Source: an uncultured bacterium (GTDB lineage Bacteria; Planctomycetota; Phycisphaerae; Phycisphaerales; SM1A02). Taken from it: a DNA stretch of 44,752 nt. Below are positions 1 through 35,149 of the stretch, piece by piece. The notes beneath the pieces are model-generated. The model was not told where the DNA came from and made no database searches. It saw nothing but the letters and a program-made list of their open reading frames with translations. Every line of letters starts with the position of its first letter. Positions within the stretch are counted from its first letter, which is position 1. The stretch lies in contig CAITDI010000033.1 of NCBI GenBank assembly GCA_903891095.1, positions 1-44,752 of the forward strand, written 5' to 3'. The position numbers and the translations under genes were made by a program.

Positions 1-85
1 CCTTCACGCCACGGGCGGCGGGGGCGTGGTGGTCACACAACTCTTCAAGCCACGCGCGCCGAGATCGTGCCCATCACACAACCCG

Positions 86-245
86 CCGCGCCGGAGGCGC
101 GGGTGCCACTTCCTCCGCGGAGCGGAGGTAGTGGTCGCGGGACATTCGAGTTCGGAACTCCGTGGCGCGGAGCGCCGGTGCCGACCGGCGCTGCGCGCCG
201 CGACCATGATGCCCCTTCGGGGAAGTGGCACCCGCCCTTCGGGCG
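86..245. repeat. Multi-hairpin intergenic element with nested inverted repeats
   Basis: This non-coding stretch lies just beyond the stop of the sulfotransferase gene. It contains at least seven perfect or nearly perfect inverted repeats: 86-92/96-102, 106-110/130-134 continuing into 112-118/122-128, 133-140/198-205, 148-152/156-160, 171-179/184-192, 212-215/219-222 and 233-237/241-245. A 15-bp perfect inverted repeat (99-113 with 221-235) encloses most of them and is mutually exclusive with several local hairpins. On the plus strand two loops read as C(UUCG)G tetraloops. It could be a BIME/REP-type repeat, a transcript-end structure or a structured RNA; the sequence alone does not decide. 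Positions 1-85 hold nothing I can assign. Confidence 0.6.
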
Positions 246-258
246 GCGGGCGCGATCT

Positions 259-1752
259 TCACACTGCCGGCCGCGCCGTGCGCGCGCGCATCGCCTCATG
301 CGCGTCGACGAGCTTGTCCCACGATGCGTCGAACGCGAACTCGTAGTTCTTCCAGCGGCCGATGGAGCTGCGGTTGATCGGCTTGCGCACCTGGAGCGCC
401 GACAGCGTGAACGACGCGCGCGTGTTGCCTTCGGGCGCGAGCACGCGCTCGTCCATCGCGAGGCCCATCAGCTTCAGGCAGCGCTCGGCGTGGCCCGCGG
501 GATCCTCGACGAGATCCTCGTACACGACCGTTTCATGCGGGATTCCCAGCACTTCCATGCCGCGCGGCACGAGGCTGCGCTGCATCTCGATCACGCGGCG
601 CATCGATGCGAGGCTGTGCGCCCACGCCATGGCGCTCGTGTGGAAGTACGACAGGAAGCAGCTCGTGGCCATGTCGCGCGGATCGCGATGGACATCGATG
701 CACACCGCGCCGGGCAGCACCGCGGCGATCTCGGGCAGCGAGCGCCACACGCGCAGCGACTTGTCGAAGGTCCACGACGCGCCGTCGCGGCGGATGCGGT
801 GCGCGCCCTCGAGGTAGAGCTTCTGCGCCGCGGCGTACGCCTGCTGCGGAACCGACGCAGGCCTGCGCGGCCACGCGCCCGTCGACTCGAGGTCGAGGCA
901 GAACTCCTTCACGCCCTCGAACTCGCCGATGCCGCTGATCGCCGGATGGCGGTCGAGCATCTGCTCGAGGAGCGTGGTGCCCGAGCGCGGCATCGCGACG
1001 ATGAGCGCGACGCCCTCCACCTTGTCGACGGCGGGCTTGATCCAGTTCTCGCCGGACCCGAAGCGCGCGAGCTGCTCCTGCATCGGCCGCAGGAACGCAT
1101 CGATGTCGAAGTCGCGCGAGGTCGTCGCGTGCGTGAACTTCGCGGTCTCGAAAGCCTCGCGGTACTGGCCGGCCTTGTCGAGGAGTCCCGCCGCCTCGAA
1201 GCCCGTGATGCGCCGCAGCAGCGGATGCAGCCTGAGGTCGCGCGCGATCGCGCCGAGCGCGGCCGCGCCTGCGGCGGGATCGTCGACCACGAGGGCGCGC
1301 GCGATGTGCAGCGGCGCGCGCTGGTCCTTGGTCCACGCGGCGCCGGACTTCACGCCGGCCTGCACGAGGTCGCGCATTTCCTCGCGCTTGTTCGAGTTGT
1401 AGAGGATGTCGAAGAGCACGACGCTCGCGCCCACGGCGTGCGGTCCGCGGCCCGACGCGATCGGGCGCAGGCGCGCGGTCGCGTCGTCGGCGCGCCCGCG
1501 CTCGGCGTCGACGCTCGCGCGCAGCAGGTTCGCATGCTCGTCGCGCGGCGAGAGCCTGAGCGCGGCGTCAAGCTCGCGCTCGGCCTCGATGCCGCGGCCG
1601 AGCTCGGTGAACGCGCGCGCGCGGCCGAGGCGCGCGACGAAGCTGTTCGGCGCCTTCGCCAGGAGCTCGTCGCACGCGCGCAGCGCGCCGACGTTGTCGC
1701 CCGCGCGCAGCAGGCGTTCGATGGTTTCGGCAGGTGTCTCGCGTGCGGCCAT
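259..1752 (-). CDS. TPR-containing sulfotransferase family protein
   Basis: The 497-residue product has helical TPR-like repeats over roughly residues 1-210 and a sulfotransferase domain from about 245 to 480. The 5'-phosphosulfate loop is visible as PRSGTT at 255-260, and a 3'-phosphate-binding segment as HRDPRD at 355-360 followed by a conserved serine region. Such proteins transfer sulfate from PAPS to a carbohydrate or protein acceptor; the TPR part probably binds the acceptor or a partner. No signal peptide is seen, so it is predicted cytoplasmic. It is followed on the same strand by the hairpin element at 86-245 and stands next to a secreted glucan hydrolase, which hints at polysaccharide modification, but the substrate cannot be read from sequence. 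Start taken at the ATG at 1752; no clear Shine-Dalgarno. Confidence 0.85.
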   Translation of the reverse strand: MAARETPAETIERLLRAGDNVGALRACDELLAKAPNSFVARLGRARAFTELGRGIEAERELDAALRLSPRDEHANLLRASVDAERGRADDATARLRPIASGRGPHAVGASVVLFDILYNSNKREEMRDLVQAGVKSGAAWTKDQRAPLHIARALVVDDPAAGAAALGAIARDLRLHPLLRRITGFEAAGLLDKAGQYREAFETAKFTHATTSRDFDIDAFLRPMQEQLARFGSGENWIKPAVDKVEGVALIVAMPRSGTTLLEQMLDRHPAISGIGEFEGVKEFCLDLESTGAWPRRPASVPQQAYAAAQKLYLEGAHRIRRDGASWTFDKSLRVWRSLPEIAAVLPGAVCIDVHRDPRDMATSCFLSYFHTSAMAWAHSLASMRRVIEMQRSLVPRGMEVLGIPHETVVYEDLVEDPAGHAERCLKLMGLAMDERVLAPEGNTRASFTLSALQVRKPINRSSIGRWKNYEFAFDASWDKLVDAHEAMRARTARPAV

Positions 1753-1791: not shown

Positions 1792-4700
1792 TCAGCACGG
1801 ACCCCACGCGCCGAGTACGAGCGAGAGATCCGCGGCGTCCACGGTCCCGCTGCGGTCGACGTCTGCGAGCGCGTTCGACGAGCCCCACGCGCCGAGGATC
1901 AGCGAGAGATCCGCTGCATCGACCGCGCCGCTGTGGTCGACGTCGGCGGGGCAGCAGGTGCCCGCCGTCGAGCCCGCCGAGGGGATCGTGATCGCGCAGC
2001 TGCGCACCGAGACGAACTCGCTCGCGTCGAGCGTGCCGTTGCCGTTCACGCTCGCGGGCGCCTGTCCTGCGGGCTTGAGCGCGCCGCCGTTGGCGTTGCC
2101 GAACGGTCCGACCGCGAGGCTCAGGTTCGCGGGCATCGCGCCGAGATACGCCGCGAGGTCGAGCGTGCCCTCGATCACGCCGCCGTTGGCGCCCGTCGCG
2201 CTCCGCGGCGCACCCGCGCCCGCGATCGTGTTGCCGAGCTGGTTGAACCAGCCCGAGTACGCGTTGTCGTTCTCGTCGGCCAGGAACGCGCTCCACGCGG
2301 CGACCTGCCCCGCCTTCGCCCACGGCGCCGCGATCGGCGCACCCGCGGGCGCGCCGACGAACACGAACACATCGTCGCCTTCGCCCGCGTCCTCGGTGGC
2401 GACGTAGAGCTCGTTGCCCTTGATGCCCGCCCACAAGTGGCGCGCGCCGTTCGACGCGACGAGCACCGCGTCGCTGTCGAGCGAGCCGTCCATCGTCCAG
2501 GTGTTCGGTGCCTGCGCGCCCGTCACGGCGACATGCCAGTCGGCGCCGCCGTTGTTGTCCCACGCGTTCGCGCCGTTGTTGAACACGATGTCGAACTGCG
2601 TCGCCGTCGCAAGCAGCGGCACGGTCGCGGTCCAGCGTTGCGTCTTCGCATTCCATGTCATCGTCGCGTCGGGGCTCGCGACCTGCGCCCACGCGTTGTA
2701 GCCGTAGTGCAGCTTGACCGTCGCCGCGCCCGCGAGCGGACGGTTCGCGGGGTTGTACGACACCGTCGCAGACGCGCCTGCGACGAGCGGACTCGGCGTG
2801 ACGGTGACGACATCGCCCGTTCCGCCGCCGCCACCCGCGCCCGCGCCGTCGCCGACCCACACATGCTGGATCGGGCTCTTGCGGATGTTGCCGCGCGTGT
2901 CGCTCGCCTCGACGTAGTAGTCGACGAGCTTGCTGCGGATGCCCGTGATGTCGGCGTAGAACTCGTCGGCGATCGCCGTCGGCATCTCGAAGAAGTCGAT
3001 GCTCGGGCTGTTGAAGAAGTTGCCCGCGGGGAACGCGCGGCGCGTCATCGCGATCGACTGCCACGCGCCCACGCCCGCGGTCTGCGCGTACAGCTCGTTC
3101 GCGTTGTCGGCGAGCGGATTCGCGCCGTCGTCGTCGACGCGGTACTTGAGCGTGACGCTCCCCGTGCCCGAGACATCGTGCACGAACGTCCACACCTTGA
3201 AGTCGCCGTTCGACTGCGACTGCTGGTAGCCGTACTGCGCGCCGAAGTTGGTCGAGCCCGGATTCCACGGAAAACGCTGGGGAATCCACACCGTCGGCCC
3301 GGTCGCGTCGAGCGTGCCCGCGCCGATCACCGTCTGCGCCTCGGCGACGGCCTCGTTGCACGCGACCGTCGGCTTGACCTCCATGTCAAGGTCGGTGCCG
3401 TAGTACATGTAGCCCGAGTTCAGGCTCCCGAGGAAGAAGTGCCACGCTCGCTCGCTCGCGCGGCTCGCGCCGGTCGGGTTCAGGATCTCGCTCGCGCGCG
3501 TCGCGAGGCCTTGTCCTGCGTGGATCTGCTCCGCGGTCGACACGAAGTTCTGCGCGGCCGTGATCACGGCCCAGTTGCGGATGTCCTCGGCCCAGCCGTT
3601 GGCGATGTCGACCGTGCCGTTCGCAAGCACGGGCGGCCAGTTCCAGTTGAGGAACTGCGGGCTGCCGAAGTCGCCGTCGGCGTTGACCCACGCGCCGTCC
3701 TCGACATGCACGATGTCGGCCGCGGGCACCGCGTGGTCGTTGAGGTACTTCTGCACGACCGTCGACTTGTAGCCCTGTCCTTCGGCGGTCGACACGAAGT
3801 TCGGCACCGCCTCCATGTAGTACGAGAAGCCGCCGCCCCACGCGTTGTCGCCGTCGTGCGCGAACACCACGAGCATCGGGCGATTCGGATCGTTGTACGC
3901 GTCGAGCGTCGTGAGCTCGCCGGTCGAGATCGGGTTGTAGCCGTCCATCCAGCCGAGATGCTGGGAGCAGGGGACGACGGTGACGAAGCTCTCGACGCCT
4001 GTGTTCGGATCGACGTACTTCGCGCGGTGCGGCGTGTACGCGAACGGCACGGCCTCGGCGGGCGCGCATCCGCGCGAGATCGTGATGCGGCGGTAGTTCG
4101 CCTGCGACGCGTTGAGCTGGTCGGCCTTGTTCGGCGGATCGCAGTTGATGCCGCCCGAGCCGTAGACCACGGGAAATCCCGCGCACGCGCGCGAAAGCTT
4201 CTCGCCCGAGACGAAGCTCCACTCGATGCCCGCCTCGGCGAGATACGGGATGATCCGCGTCGAGAACGCCATCTCGCTCGGGAAGAATCCCTTCGACACC
4301 GCGGGCGCCGCGCCGAACGCCTGCGGGTAGATCGCCTTGAAGACCGCGAGTTCCTTGCGCACCGCGTCGCCGTCGACGAGCGGCAGCAGCGCGTGGTGAT
4401 GCGAGAACATCACGAGATCCATGCGCGGGAAGTTCGCGCCTGCGGCCGCGGTGCTCCATCCGCGCGACTCGCGCCACGGTCCGTACCAGTTGGTCGAGTA
4501 GCCGAGCTGCCCGCCCGCTTCGGCAAAGCTCTGGATGTTCTCGATCAGTCCGCCGCTGAAGCTCACCTGCGCGCCGGCCTCCGACGCCCACGAGATCGCG
4601 CTCACCGTGTCGCGCGGGCGGAACTGGTACGCAGCCACGCGGTCGGCGAGGCCGAAGATCGCGCGCAGGTCGTTCTGAGGATGCGCGCCGCCCGCGTCGC

Positions 4701-4887
4701 GGCGCAGGGTCGACTGCCACGCGCGCTCGTATCGCTGCGTTCCCGCCTGGCGGTCGGGCCAGTAGATCGGCTGCTCGAGATGCCAGAGGTAGGTGAAGTG
4801 CGTCTTCTCCGCGACGGCGGGCGCGGCGAAGGCAGCGCAAAGCACGGGAAACACAGCGAGCGAGGTGACCGATCGGGCGCGGGACAT
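1792..4887 (-). CDS. Secreted GH57-like glycoside hydrolase with CBM25-like module and dockerin tail
   Basis: This 1031-residue protein starts with a signal peptide (about residues 1-26, ending AVA). The first ~400 residues resemble the GH57 alpha-amylase/glucanotransferase barrel: an early WHLEQP segment, a FFPSEMAFS segment whose Glu near 205 matches the family nucleophile, and HDGDNAWGG near 344-352 with the likely acid Asp. Beta-sandwich segments follow, including a starch-binding CBM25-like module near 690-780 (YNAW and WDNNGGADW features). The last ~60 residues carry two calcium-loop repeats (DVDHSGAVDAADLSLILGAW type), a dockerin-like tail flanked by cysteines. I infer extracellular alpha-glucan degradation. 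The start at 4887 is preferred over 4923 because it gives a clean signal peptide. A degenerate CAGACT box ends 7 nt before it. Confidence 0.8.
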   Translation of the reverse strand: MSRARSVTSLAVFPVLCAAFAAPAVAEKTHFTYLWHLEQPIYWPDRQAGTQRYERAWQSTLRRDAGGAHPQNDLRAIFGLADRVAAYQFRPRDTVSAISWASEAGAQVSFSGGLIENIQSFAEAGGQLGYSTNWYGPWRESRGWSTAAAGANFPRMDLVMFSHHHALLPLVDGDAVRKELAVFKAIYPQAFGAAPAVSKGFFPSEMAFSTRIIPYLAEAGIEWSFVSGEKLSRACAGFPVVYGSGGINCDPPNKADQLNASQANYRRITISRGCAPAEAVPFAYTPHRAKYVDPNTGVESFVTVVPCSQHLGWMDGYNPISTGELTTLDAYNDPNRPMLVVFAHDGDNAWGGGFSYYMEAVPNFVSTAEGQGYKSTVVQKYLNDHAVPAADIVHVEDGAWVNADGDFGSPQFLNWNWPPVLANGTVDIANGWAEDIRNWAVITAAQNFVSTAEQIHAGQGLATRASEILNPTGASRASERAWHFFLGSLNSGYMYYGTDLDMEVKPTVACNEAVAEAQTVIGAGTLDATGPTVWIPQRFPWNPGSTNFGAQYGYQQSQSNGDFKVWTFVHDVSGTGSVTLKYRVDDDGANPLADNANELYAQTAGVGAWQSIAMTRRAFPAGNFFNSPSIDFFEMPTAIADEFYADITGIRSKLVDYYVEASDTRGNIRKSPIQHVWVGDGAGAGGGGGTGDVVTVTPSPLVAGASATVSYNPANRPLAGAATVKLHYGYNAWAQVASPDATMTWNAKTQRWTATVPLLATATQFDIVFNNGANAWDNNGGADWHVAVTGAQAPNTWTMDGSLDSDAVLVASNGARHLWAGIKGNELYVATEDAGEGDDVFVFVGAPAGAPIAAPWAKAGQVAAWSAFLADENDNAYSGWFNQLGNTIAGAGAPRSATGANGGVIEGTLDLAAYLGAMPANLSLAVGPFGNANGGALKPAGQAPASVNGNGTLDASEFVSVRSCAITIPSAGSTAGTCCPADVDHSGAVDAADLSLILGAWGSSNALADVDRSGTVDAADLSLVLGAWGPC

Positions 4888-4963
4888 CGCGGCGAGTCTG
4901 ACGGAGGCGCCGCGCGAACGCAAGGGAATCGGCGGTGAATGATGGAAATCGCGGGGGTGCGCG

Positions 4964-4969
4964 TATACT
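4964..4969 (+). promoter_or_regulatory. TATACT -10-like box, 7 nt before the DUF433 start
   Basis: TATACT is followed by 7 nt and then the ATG at 4977, with no Shine-Dalgarno between. If it is a -10 element, transcription would begin at or next to the A of the start codon, giving a leaderless mRNA. Confidence 0.5.
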
Positions 4970-4976
4970 CGGCGCC

Positions 4977-5204
4977 ATGAGCGAGTTCCGTTGCATCACG
5001 ATCGACCCCGCAGTCCGCTTCGGGCGACCATGCGTCCGCGGGACGCGCATTTCCGTCGGCGACGTGCTCGGTTTCCTTGCATCCGGGATGAGCGAATCGG
5101 AGGTCCTGGCGGACTTCCCGCAGCTCACGAGCGAGGACATCCGCGAGTGCCTGGCGTTTGCGTCGGTGCGTGAGAATCGCATCCTCATCGACCCGGCCGC
5201 GTGA
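4977..5204 (+). CDS. DUF433 family antitoxin-like protein
   Basis: This 75-residue protein matches the DUF433 (VapB-type, HTH-like) antitoxin pattern: CITIDP, then GRPCVRGTRISVGDVLGFL, a short acidic helix (SESEVLADFPQLTSEDI) and a final RECLAFA helix. In other bacteria such proteins are encoded directly before DUF5615 PIN-like toxins and are thought to bind DNA and neutralise the toxin. The same arrangement is seen here: the next frame starts in a GTGA overlap with this stop codon. The start at 4977 is chosen over 4935 because MSEFRCITIDP is the usual family N-terminus and a TATACT box ends 7 nt upstream. The partner toxin is disrupted, so this may be an orphan antitoxin now. Confidence 0.85.
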   Translation: MSEFRCITIDPAVRFGRPCVRGTRISVGDVLGFLASGMSESEVLADFPQLTSEDIRECLAFASVRENRILIDPAA

Positions 5205-8499: not shown

Positions 8500-9467
8500 T
8501 GCCCGACCCACGCACGATCCACGATCCGGTGCAGGACTGGAATGCGATGACGCTTCCGGCGCTGTTCGACGCGCTCGCGCGGCCTGACGCGGAGGACGCC
8601 GTCGCGCGCGCGCTCGACGAGGACCTTGGCGCGCGCTTTGGCGGCGCGGGGGATGTGACGAGCCTGGCGTCGATTCCTGCGGCGATGCAGGGCCGCGCGA
8701 CCATCGTGAGTCGCGCGGACGGCGTGCTTGCGGGCGTGCGCGTGGCCGAGATCGTCGCGCGTCGCGCGGGGCTGCGCATCGATGTGCGCGTCGACGACGG
8801 CGCGCGCCTCGTGCGCGGCACGCGCGTCGCGACGCTCGAGGGTCCGCTCGCGTCGATCCTCACGCATGAGCGGACGATCCTCAACTTCCTCACGCTGCTC
8901 TCGGGCAACGCGTCGCTCGCGGCGCAGTTCGTCGACGCCGCGCGTGGAACGCGCGCGCGCATCTGCGACACGCGCAAGACCGTCCCCGGCCTTCGCACGC
9001 TGCAGAAGTACGCGACCCGTTGCGGCGGCGCTTCGCTGCATCGCATCGGGTTGTTCGACGCGGTGCTGCTCAAGGACAACCATCTCGGCGCGTTCGAGTC
9101 GGGCACGCTCGCGGAGCGCGTCCGCGCGGCCTCCGCGCATGCGCGCGCGAGCGCACGCATCGCGTTCGTCGAGTGCGAGGTCGATGCGCTCGCGCAGCTC
9201 GATGAACTGCTCGCGCTCGAGCAGGGCGTGCTCGACATGATCCTCCTCGACAACATGGACGCGGGCACGCTCGCCGAGGCCGTGCGCCGTCGCGATGCGC
9301 GCGCGCCGCGCGTGCTGCTCGAGGCCTCGGGTGGCGTGCGCCTCGACACGGTCAAGCGCATCGCCGCGACGGGCGTCGACCGCATCTCGGTCGGCGCGAT
9401 CACGCACTCGGCGCTTGCGCTCGATCTCGGGCTCGATCTCGACGCGGTCACGGAGCGCGGCGCGTGA
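8496..9467 (+). CDS. nadC: Nicotinate-nucleotide pyrophosphorylase (quinolinate phosphoribosyltransferase)
   Basis: NadC converts quinolinate and PRPP into nicotinate mononucleotide, CO2 and pyrophosphate in de novo NAD synthesis. The 323-residue product shows the family landmarks: GDVTS near 52-56, ILNFL and SGNAS near 128-140, DTRKT at 158-162, HR at 182-183, LLKDNH at 191-196, a LLDNM segment and a final GVDRISVGAITHS phosphate-binding strand. One small deviation is Leu181 where most homologues have Asn before the conserved HR. The start at 8496 overlaps the HIT stop (ATGA), implying translational coupling, and the end overlaps birA (GTGA). The N-terminal ~35 residues are slightly longer than usual. 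Confidence 0.93.
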   Translation: MMPDPRTIHDPVQDWNAMTLPALFDALARPDAEDAVARALDEDLGARFGGAGDVTSLASIPAAMQGRATIVSRADGVLAGVRVAEIVARRAGLRIDVRVDDGARLVRGTRVATLEGPLASILTHERTILNFLTLLSGNASLAAQFVDAARGTRARICDTRKTVPGLRTLQKYATRCGGASLHRIGLFDAVLLKDNHLGAFESGTLAERVRAASAHARASARIAFVECEVDALAQLDELLALEQGVLDMILLDNMDAGTLAEAVRRRDARAPRVLLEASGGVRLDTVKRIAATGVDRISVGAITHSALALDLGLDLDAVTERGA

Positions 9468-34071: not shown

Positions 34072-34145
34072 GGTCGCGTACCCAAGTGGCCTAAGGGAAC
34101 GGATTGCAAATCCGTGATTCGTGGGTTCAAATCCCACCGCGACCT
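34072..34145 (+). tRNA. tRNA-Cys (anticodon GCA)
   Basis: Acceptor GGTCGCG (34072-34078) pairs with CGCGACC (34138-34144) followed by discriminator T. The anticodon stem ACGGA/TCCGT encloses TTGCAAA with anticodon GCA, and the T arm is GTGGG-TTCAAAT-CCCAC. U73 is the known identity base for tRNA-Cys. CCA is not encoded. A terminator follows at 34152. Confidence 0.95.
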
Positions 34146-34408: not shown

Positions 34409-35149
34409 TCACCGGAAGATCGGCGGATGCGGCGGATCGGTCGGCGTGCGCGGCGGGTTGGTGCCGGGCGTCGTTCCTGGCGATCCGAATCCTGGCGCGC
34501 GCGGCGGCGCGATCGGCGCATCGGGCGGGTTGCGACCACCTGGGTCGGAGCCGAATCCTGGCGCGCGCGGCGGCGCGATCGGCGCATCGGGCGGATTGCG
34601 ACCGCCCGGGTTGGAACCGAACCCCGGCGCACGCGGCGCCTCAATGGGTCGACCTGGCTCGTTGCGGCCTGGAGTGCTGCCGAATCCCGGCGGCTTCGGC
34701 GCGCGGATCGGCGCGCCCGGCTCGTTGCGGCCCGGGGTGGAGCCAAATCCTGGCGGACGCGGCGCCTCAATGGGTCGACCTGGCTCGTTCTTGCCGGGCG
34801 TCGAGCCGAATCCTGGCGGCTTGGGTGCCTTGATCGGGTCGCCAGGCATGCGCTTGCTCGGCTTCGCGGTCGGCTTGCCGTCACGGCCTGGGTTGATCGG
34901 ATCGCCAGGTTCGCGCTGACCGGGCAGCACGACGGGCGCGGGCTTCTCTGGGTTCACGGGGTCGCTGGGTTCGCGCTGGCCGGGAAGCACCTCAGGCAGG
35001 GGCTTCTCCGGTGAGACCGGCTCCTGCTGCGACGGACGCGCTGGCGCCGGCAGCGAGCCAGGAAAGATCGGCGGGGTCGCCTGCGCGAACACCGTCGTCG
35101 TGATTCCGGCGCTGAGGATGCAGATGGCGGCGATCGGTCGCTGACGCAT
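34409..35149 (-). CDS. Secreted Pro/Gly-rich tandem-repeat protein
   Basis: The 246-residue product has a signal peptide (MRQRPIAAICILSAGITTTVFA) and is otherwise Pro, Gly, Asn and Arg rich. About five tandem units of 21-22 residues begin PGFGS and continue as TPGRNEPGRPIEAPRP or NPGGRNPPDAPIAPPRA; two further related units near the N-terminus read VLPGQREPSDPVNPEKPAP. The repeat contains no cysteine and no aromatic except Phe in PGFGS. It looks like an extended, elastic or matrix-like secreted chain; function unknown. Unit variants fall into two families, suggesting successive duplications. Translation probably uses one of three tandem Shine-Dalgarno copies just upstream. Confidence 0.8.
   Translation of the reverse strand: MRQRPIAAICILSAGITTTVFAQATPPIFPGSLPAPARPSQQEPVSPEKPLPEVLPGQREPSDPVNPEKPAPVVLPGQREPGDPINPGRDGKPTAKPSKRMPGDPIKAPKPPGFGSTPGKNEPGRPIEAPRPPGFGSTPGRNEPGAPIRAPKPPGFGSTPGRNEPGRPIEAPRAPGFGSNPGGRNPPDAPIAPPRAPGFGSDPGGRNPPDAPIAPPRAPGFGSPGTTPGTNPPRTPTDPPHPPIFR

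Follow-up and report, generated by a model that had tools for sequence, protein, structure and literature searches.

REPs lie behind genes, between convergent or tandem genes, and form inverted dimers, which in one group join only units of different loop length; they are thought to be moved by RAYTs (available parts of PMC3733652 and PMC2817692). The copy number of REPs is usually >100 (available part of PMC2817692), and an interrupted stem matters for the E. coli TnpA-REP (available part of PMC8266576). Class 3 TnpA-Y1 genes occur mainly in Planctomycetes, Acidobacteria and Proteobacteria and are flanked by several atypical secondary structures, which can be abundant (available part of PMC6006769). 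The BOX elements of pneumococci are structured interspersed repeats with a narrow host range and were judged parasitic (available part of PMC3049150). In the open-licence literature, as far as its accessible parts go, we found no description of the repeat family reported here. We consider it likely that positions 77-257 of the window form an inverted heteropair of an L and an S' unit, and that they belong to a dispersed, genus-level family of REP/BIME-like repeats whose units would be non-autonomous and copied in trans.

Structure of the window copy

The window is the whole DNA stretch of 44,752 nt, and coordinates are window positions unless a contig or locus is named. The genome that it comes from, the own genome, is labelled G000. 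A dockerin domain and C-termini of this kind point to a probable planctomycete. The feature spans 77-257 and is longer than the 86-245 given by an earlier sequence-only reading. It consists of an L unit and an S' unit placed tail to tail, with their 3' ends meeting. The parts are as follows.

2-82, no strand: two 40-nt direct repeats, 75% alike (2-41/43-82; repeat listing)
77-180, plus strand: long (L) unit with hairpin 1, GGGTGCCACTTCC, hairpin 2, GGTAGTGGTCGC, linker, hairpin 3 and GGTG (alignment of 41 units)
86-102, plus strand: hairpin 1 of the L unit, 7-bp stem with GGA loop (sequence and parse)
99-113, plus strand: left arm of the 15-bp inverted repeat, made up of the hairpin 1 end and the conserved core (sequence, repeat listing)
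106-134, plus strand: hairpin 2 of the L unit, stem interrupted by a T.T mismatch (inverted-repeat listing and folds)
148-160, plus strand: linker hairpin GAGTTCGGAACTC (sequence; forms in the DNA fold of the unit)
164-176, plus strand: hairpin 3 of the L unit, GGCGC GGA GCGCC (sequence and fold)
183-257, minus strand: S' unit, a short variant that lacks the long linker and is inverted, with its 3' end toward the L unit (alignment)
187-199, minus strand: hairpin 3 of the S' unit (sequence and fold)
212-222, minus strand: hairpin 2 of the S' unit, CCCC GAA GGGG (sequence, parse and fold)
221-235, minus strand: right arm of the 15-bp inverted repeat, the equivalent stretch of the S' unit (sequence, repeat listing)
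232-246, minus strand: hairpin 1 of the S' unit, CCGCCC GAA GGGCGG (sequence and parse)
259-1752, minus strand: neighbouring TPR/sulfotransferase gene (ORF; Pfam PF13469 97.2 bits, TPR_19 33 bits)

The covariance model of the family matched the L unit at 75-180 (86.4 bits, E 1.9e-16) and the S' unit at 183-257 (57.4 bits, E 1.2e-9), both units being part of its training set. The S' unit adjoins the stop codon of the TPR/sulfotransferase gene, 1-2 nt past the stop. The direct repeats at 2-82 are possibly decayed copies of the 39-42 bp arrays found 5' of some units; Tandem Repeats Finder reported no array in window 1-400, which counts against this reading. The window also holds two tRNA-Cys genes (both gca) at 34072-34145 (+) and 34560-34634 (-), 415 bp apart, and Rfam at its threshold reports only the first of them.

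Folding of the window pair

Most of the structure proposed by the sequence-only reading was confirmed. The stretch 99-113 (GCGGGTGCCACTTCC) is the exact reverse complement of 221-235, and this perfect 15-bp repeat sits inside a 25-nt pair (89-113/221-245) that is 88% complementary. The repeat arises because both window units carry GCGGGTGCCACTTCC. A perfect separated 15-nt inverted repeat was seen in 1/2000 mononucleotide shuffles and in 0/259 other 171-nt tiles of the window. The local hairpins at 86-102 and 106-134 are present, the latter with its T.T mismatch. The count of at least seven inverted repeats in 160 bp was fair; 40 inverted pairs were found in window 1-400 (25 itemised).

Folding of both strands showed that 80-250 is far more stable than dinucleotide shuffles, and not merely equal to them. 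The RNA fold of the plus strand reached -132.9 kcal/mol (shuffle mean -89.9, sd 4.38, z -9.82) and that of the minus strand had a z of -7.73. None of 200 shuffles folded as well on either strand. With the pairing span limited to 45 or 60 nt, the fold of 80-250 was -107.8 or -109.8 kcal/mol, which leaves the long-range fold as the more stable of the two. As RNA, the L unit alone had a z of -2.3 (4/200 shuffles equally good), and the S' unit alone was no better than shuffles (z -0.8, 39/200 equally good).

The two C(UUCG)G tetraloops proposed for the plus strand fared less well. The strings C(TTCG)G exist (213-221, 235-243), but they say little for RNA tetraloops because the hairpins are symmetric and their complement reads C-GAA-G. 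We therefore rejected RNA UUCG tetraloops and read TTCG as the complement of the C-GAA-G loops. A structured non-coding RNA, another of the earlier proposals, is possible for the window element. The Rfam search found no family that matches it.

A dispersed repeat family in the own genome

BLAST of the window stretch gave 81 matches in the own genome (3.6 Mb, 131 contigs, 98.6% complete), and the 18 regions around the matches contained a single recurring unit. The core pattern occurred at 41 places, vs 0 for the reversed control. A covariance model built from 41 units found 44 units at E<=1e-3 and 46 at E<=0.1; the training set makes up 41 of the 44, and the three units outside it are C13:11213, C3:2774 and C6:49340. 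The unit counts, and the gene-context counts below, take in contig-end loci and two places that are probably represented twice (C58 end/C93 start, and C30/C52 ends), as their alignment indicates. At the C58 end (L011 3911-4083), hairpin 1 reads CCC-GAA-GGG, and at the C93 start (L023 1-173) CGC-GCA-GCG. If this is one place, as is probable, the difference reflects either paired changes between strains or an artefact of assembly.

The units are about 75-110 nt long and have three or four hairpins. The order on the sense strand is hairpin 1, GGGTGCC, hairpin 2, TGGTCGC, a foldable linker, hairpin 3 and GRTC. Hairpin 2 has an outer CCACT/AGTGG stem, a T.T mismatch and an inner stem of varying length. 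The 44 units were classed on hairpin 2 by a script with L as the default, which gave 21 L, 3 M, 15 S plus one cut off after two bases, and 4 S'.

For hairpin 1 there are five stem types, with a perfect stem in 43/44 units. Its pairing was kept in 276/277 pairs, vs 0.869 on average and 0.917 at most after 3' arms were re-dealt among units. The same test was weak for hairpin 2 (223/232, 0.961, vs a shuffle mean of 0.937 and maximum of 0.961 in 500 shuffles). C-GNA-G triloops are very stable DNA loops, and they close hairpin 1 in 42/44 own-genome units. We rejected this triloop as a family rule; hairpin 1 loops in the relatives G005 and G007 include AAA, AAC, CCT, TTT and CTA. Single units of the own genome folded as RNA with z of -3.6, -2.7, -2.3 and -0.8, and those of the relatives G004 and G007 with z of -1.3 and -2.8. 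As DNA, three own-genome units had z of -2.9 to -4.6 over both strands.

Pairing of units and tandem arrays

All 18 inverted neighbour pairs of the own genome join an L or M unit to an S or S' unit; one S call comes from the cut-off unit, and two of the pairs may represent a single place. Fifteen pairs are head to head and three, including that of the window, are tail to tail. One direct pair (M, M) and single units are also present. The relatives differ. One of the three pairs seen in G007 consists of two long units, and G005 units have a hairpin 2 of a single length, so the long/short rule holds for the own genome only.

The core-to-core distance within pairs ranges from 60 to 279 nt. The mutually exclusive folds noticed earlier do exist as two alternatives, but no switch is needed to explain them. 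They arise because two hairpin units lie in opposite orientation, and the range of distances together with the occurrence of both pair orientations makes them a by-product of inverted units. The suggestion of a switching 3' structure meets the same objection: the units do lie at gene 3' ends, but the pair distance varies and both head-to-head and tail-to-tail pairs occur.

Tandem arrays of 39-42 bp lie 5' of some units. Only one of them falls within a seen head-to-head spacer (3.3 copies, in C30). Two 39-bp arrays 5' of units run into contig ends, with 8.9 copies at the C30 end (L014 5047-5393) and 3.5 at the C45 end (L017 4691-4825).

Genomic location

Gene context was taken from our own codon-usage gene caller, and other gaps were counted if they were at least 80 nt long. 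The 26 loci of the own genome all lie outside called genes: 8 between convergent genes, 7 between tandem genes, 1 between divergent genes and 10 at contig edges. Gene 3' ends faced units 31 times and 5' ends 11 times, vs 20 and 42 in other gaps (Fisher p 5e-5). An earlier version of the gene caller with heavier masking gave 26 vs 15 against 23 vs 41 (p 0.009). The 23 loci of G004, G005 and G007 showed the same preference, with 7 convergent, 4 tandem, 0 divergent and 12 at edges; 3' vs 5' ends were 26 vs 8 at units and 17 vs 33 elsewhere (p 1.6e-4). On contig C51 of G004 (L105), three unit loci (2000-2400, 4600-5030 and 9050-9320) lie behind near-identical gene ends within 7 kb; these units were carried along with a tandem gene duplication.

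Distribution across the genus and family

A BLAST search of 60 relatives with the window copy yielded no more than short pieces, from three of the genomes, so a covariance model was needed for the diverged versions. The first model, run against the 15 other genus genomes, gave one weak match, in G004. This match is a head-to-head pair with the same anatomy and different stems. Used as a query, the G004 pair matched G007 39 times and G004 6 times, and G005 gave 8 short matches. A second model, built on units of four species, matched 6/16 genus genomes and 0/165 other family genomes. With 21 candidates scored per genome, and with stricter filters by which weak matches were lost, the matches were at least 21 in G000, at least 19 in G007, 5 in G004, 2 in G003, 1 in G005 and 1 in G001; the other 10/16 genus genomes had no match to this model. 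The matches on G001 C49 and G003 C138, which were not used for the model, have different stems within the same anatomy.

G005 has its own version, GGGTGCCCAGT-hairpin 2-ACTGGGTCGC, with at least 13 units in 7 loci and 6 head-to-head pairs, each of which, by our reading, joins two linker types. Across species, 5/17 consensus pairs changed on both sides. The perfection of hairpin 1 stems in G004, G005 and G007 is partly by construction, because the scans required perfect stems of at least 5-6 bp. The search for covariation and for other copies in related genomes, suggested by the sequence-only reading, led to a dispersed repeat with 44 units in its own genome and with genus relatives that carry their own versions.

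The pattern GGGTGCCACN{8,38}AGTGNNCGC gave 16 matches outside the own genome among 181 family genomes, vs 27 for the reversed control, and two of the 16 are real (G004 C51, G003 C141). A pattern scan of the genome contig collection gave 13 stretches, 12 without hairpins and one real (L049); viral contigs gave 0 matches. L049 (CAIYPF010000047.1, labelled Gammaproteobacteria) holds two units and is probably a misplaced contig of a near relative; 119 nt of one unit are identical to the C47 end of the own genome.

The convergent junction on C104 of the own genome is 347 nt long. No unit was found at this junction in 11 relatives, in three of which the contig ends 2-198 nt past the gene. Five relatives have a convergent neighbour that is similar in length, and gaps of 35-238 nt. 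One loose match in G008 is another repeat elsewhere in the locus. The absence of units in the relatives supports a lineage-specific gain, without giving its exact ends, and no exact empty site was found. Two close relatives, G012 and G002 (ends of L226 and L227), have a GTCACGCCTTCACG-type tandem repeat close to the contig end, at a junction with a unit pair in the own genome. The 20 sulfotransferase loci scanned held two units in the own copy, one loose 6-bp match in L221 and none elsewhere; nothing was concluded from them because they are mixtures of paralogues 51-65% identical.

Search for a possible mobilising enzyme

Two Y1 (IS200-like) genes were found in the own genome (PF01797), and 28 matches in 13/16 genus genomes. 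None of the 28 Y1 loci carries a unit. The search covered 30 stretches (two loci repeated; 102,418 bases, several cut by contig ends), and its strict hallmark would miss G005-type units. A looser test gave 4 matches, none with the unit anatomy. L181 and L184 have a hairpin followed by GGTGCC near the Y1 gene, a likeness too short to count. Both own Y1 genes are of the YIERNP type and are flanked by other palindromes, and one scored 51.6 bits on the RAYT model, below the cut-off of 80. At these two loci (C117 and C38; L027 1300-2140, L028 1184-1224) the palindromes are of the GTGCACGGCACGTGCCGTGCAC / GGCACGTGCC type and are unrelated in sequence to the window repeat. The motif Y...NP, and not the class 3 motif, was present in 15/16 Y1 loci checked, and one had no motif.

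Ten head-to-head pairs showed no target-site duplication; the mean best flank repeat was 0.8 nt, vs 1.1 for mismatched partners. No transposase gene flanked by a unit was found in the 28 Y1 loci, nor was a parent transposon found.

Comparison with known repeats

The closest known kind is the REP/BIME repeat, and the family works like a REP/BIME. The units are dispersed, extragenic and species-specific, although 44 units are fewer than the >100 that the source, as far as available, gives as usual for REPs. They lie behind genes and between convergent or tandem genes, and they form 18 inverted neighbour pairs vs one direct, as heteropairs. The interrupted stem also recurs in one REP group (available part of PMC8266576). 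On the other hand, the units are 75-110 nt long with three or four hairpins, whereas REPs are 20-40 bp with one palindrome. There is no unpaired GTAG/CGTC tag common to the species here: in L, M and S units, GTAG is partly paired and belongs to the 3' arm of hairpin 2, and CGTC is found in 3/4 S' units; at the GTAG position, G004 and G007 units have GCAG and G005 units have none. No Y1/RAYT gene flanked by units was found in this genus (0/28 loci). The family was not filed as REP/BIME because of these differences in size, tag and RAYT link.

The repeats beside class 3 TnpA-Y1 genes resemble the family in their occurrence in Planctomycetes, atypical structures and abundance, a likeness of description and not of sequence. 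Among the PF01797 matches here, no class 3 gene was found. The reported foot of these repeats is CnGA, and by analogy, as far as the source is available, they may be the best lead. Like a small paired element of the REPIN/MITE kind, the head-to-head pairs end on both sides in inverted copies of hairpin 3 plus GRTC, but neither the target-site duplication nor the parent transposon of a MITE was found here. BOX elements have a modular make-up. They share with the family a structured, interspersed nature and a narrow host range, judging by description only and by the accessible part of the source.

Proposed mechanism and rival explanations

In our view the window pair is a REP/BIME-like element, probably non-autonomous, that would provide transcripts with 3' hairpins. 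Its units would be non-autonomous DNA that spreads via copying of a folded single strand. The copying enzyme would act in trans and recognise the hairpins, and would most likely be something like an HUH/Y1 transposase, although none is linked to the units here. Copies would persist where they are least harmful, behind genes and between convergent genes, and read-through transcripts would carry them as strong 3' hairpins. Of the three natures suggested by the sequence-only reading, the mobile palindromic element thus fits best, with a dispersed family and species-specific versions; the mobility is what we infer from these. Amplification of the unit stretch through recombination, or through gene duplication in tandem as in G004, is an equally good alternative to mobility.

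The units might instead serve the host as two-way 3' elements, in which transcripts from either side are stopped or protected by the hairpins together with an outward tail rich in C and poor in G; Rho-dependent termination would be one way. We think this rather improbable, despite the 3'-end and convergent bias in two independent sets and the stem pairing that is retained although the letters change. The 25 nt past the unit have C 0.488 and G 0.167, a tail noticed post hoc in the 33/44 units parsed (the 11 unparsed ones were dropped), and comparison stretches before opposing gene 3' ends have C 0.375 and G 0.324. The C/G values past the unit are 0.433/0.233 in G005, 0.45/0.23 in G004 and 0.405/0.28 in G007. 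Such a tail would suit Rho-dependent ends, but the location bias fits harmless insertion too. There is no T-run terminator; intrinsic terminators (a G+C-rich hairpin, then a T run) numbered 0 in window 1-500 and L012 3250-3700. Moreover, the element is dispensable, since 10/16 genus genomes are without a match and relatives lack units at the C104 junction. Far less credible is an RNA switch that regulates the sulfotransferase transcript specifically. Two alternative folds do lie 1-2 nt past that stop codon, but the same units stand behind many unrelated genes, the distance and arrangement of pairs vary, the exclusivity follows from inverted units, and the two folds are 23-25 kcal/mol apart.

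It is also improbable, somewhat more so than a two-way 3' element, that the units are distant REPs of the genus Y1/RAYT genes, or of a missed class 3 TnpA-Y1, moved in trans. The Y1 genes in 13/16 genus genomes, the hairpins followed by GGTGCC in L181 and L184, and the several atypical, possibly abundant structures beside Planctomycetes class 3 genes (available part of PMC6006769) speak for it. Against it stand the 0/28 Y1 loci with a unit, the other palindromes beside the two own Y1 genes, and the Y...NP motif, not that of class 3, in 15/16 checked loci (none in one). The GGTGCC likeness is short, and loose matches are about equally frequent in other loci.

Significance

The REP/BIME-like reading remains our preferred one. 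We regard as unlikely, though less so than the rivals above, that the pairs form a class of multi-hairpin DNA of their own, apart from REP/RAYT, with heteropairs, inheritance by shape instead of sequence, two-way transcript ends and copying by neither a RAYT nor a classical transposase. If true, such a class would place two unit types as inverted heteropairs between convergent genes within one genus. As a REP/BIME-like repeat, the family has a three-hairpin architecture that outlives its sequence across species of one genus. It offers a natural covariation data set in which selection on folded DNA or RNA may be weighed against the copying process as the cause of upkeep. The putative enzyme is searchable by comparing the six unit-bearing genus genomes (G000 with 44 units, G007 at least 19, G005 at least 13, G004 5, G003 2 and G001 1) with the ten without a match.
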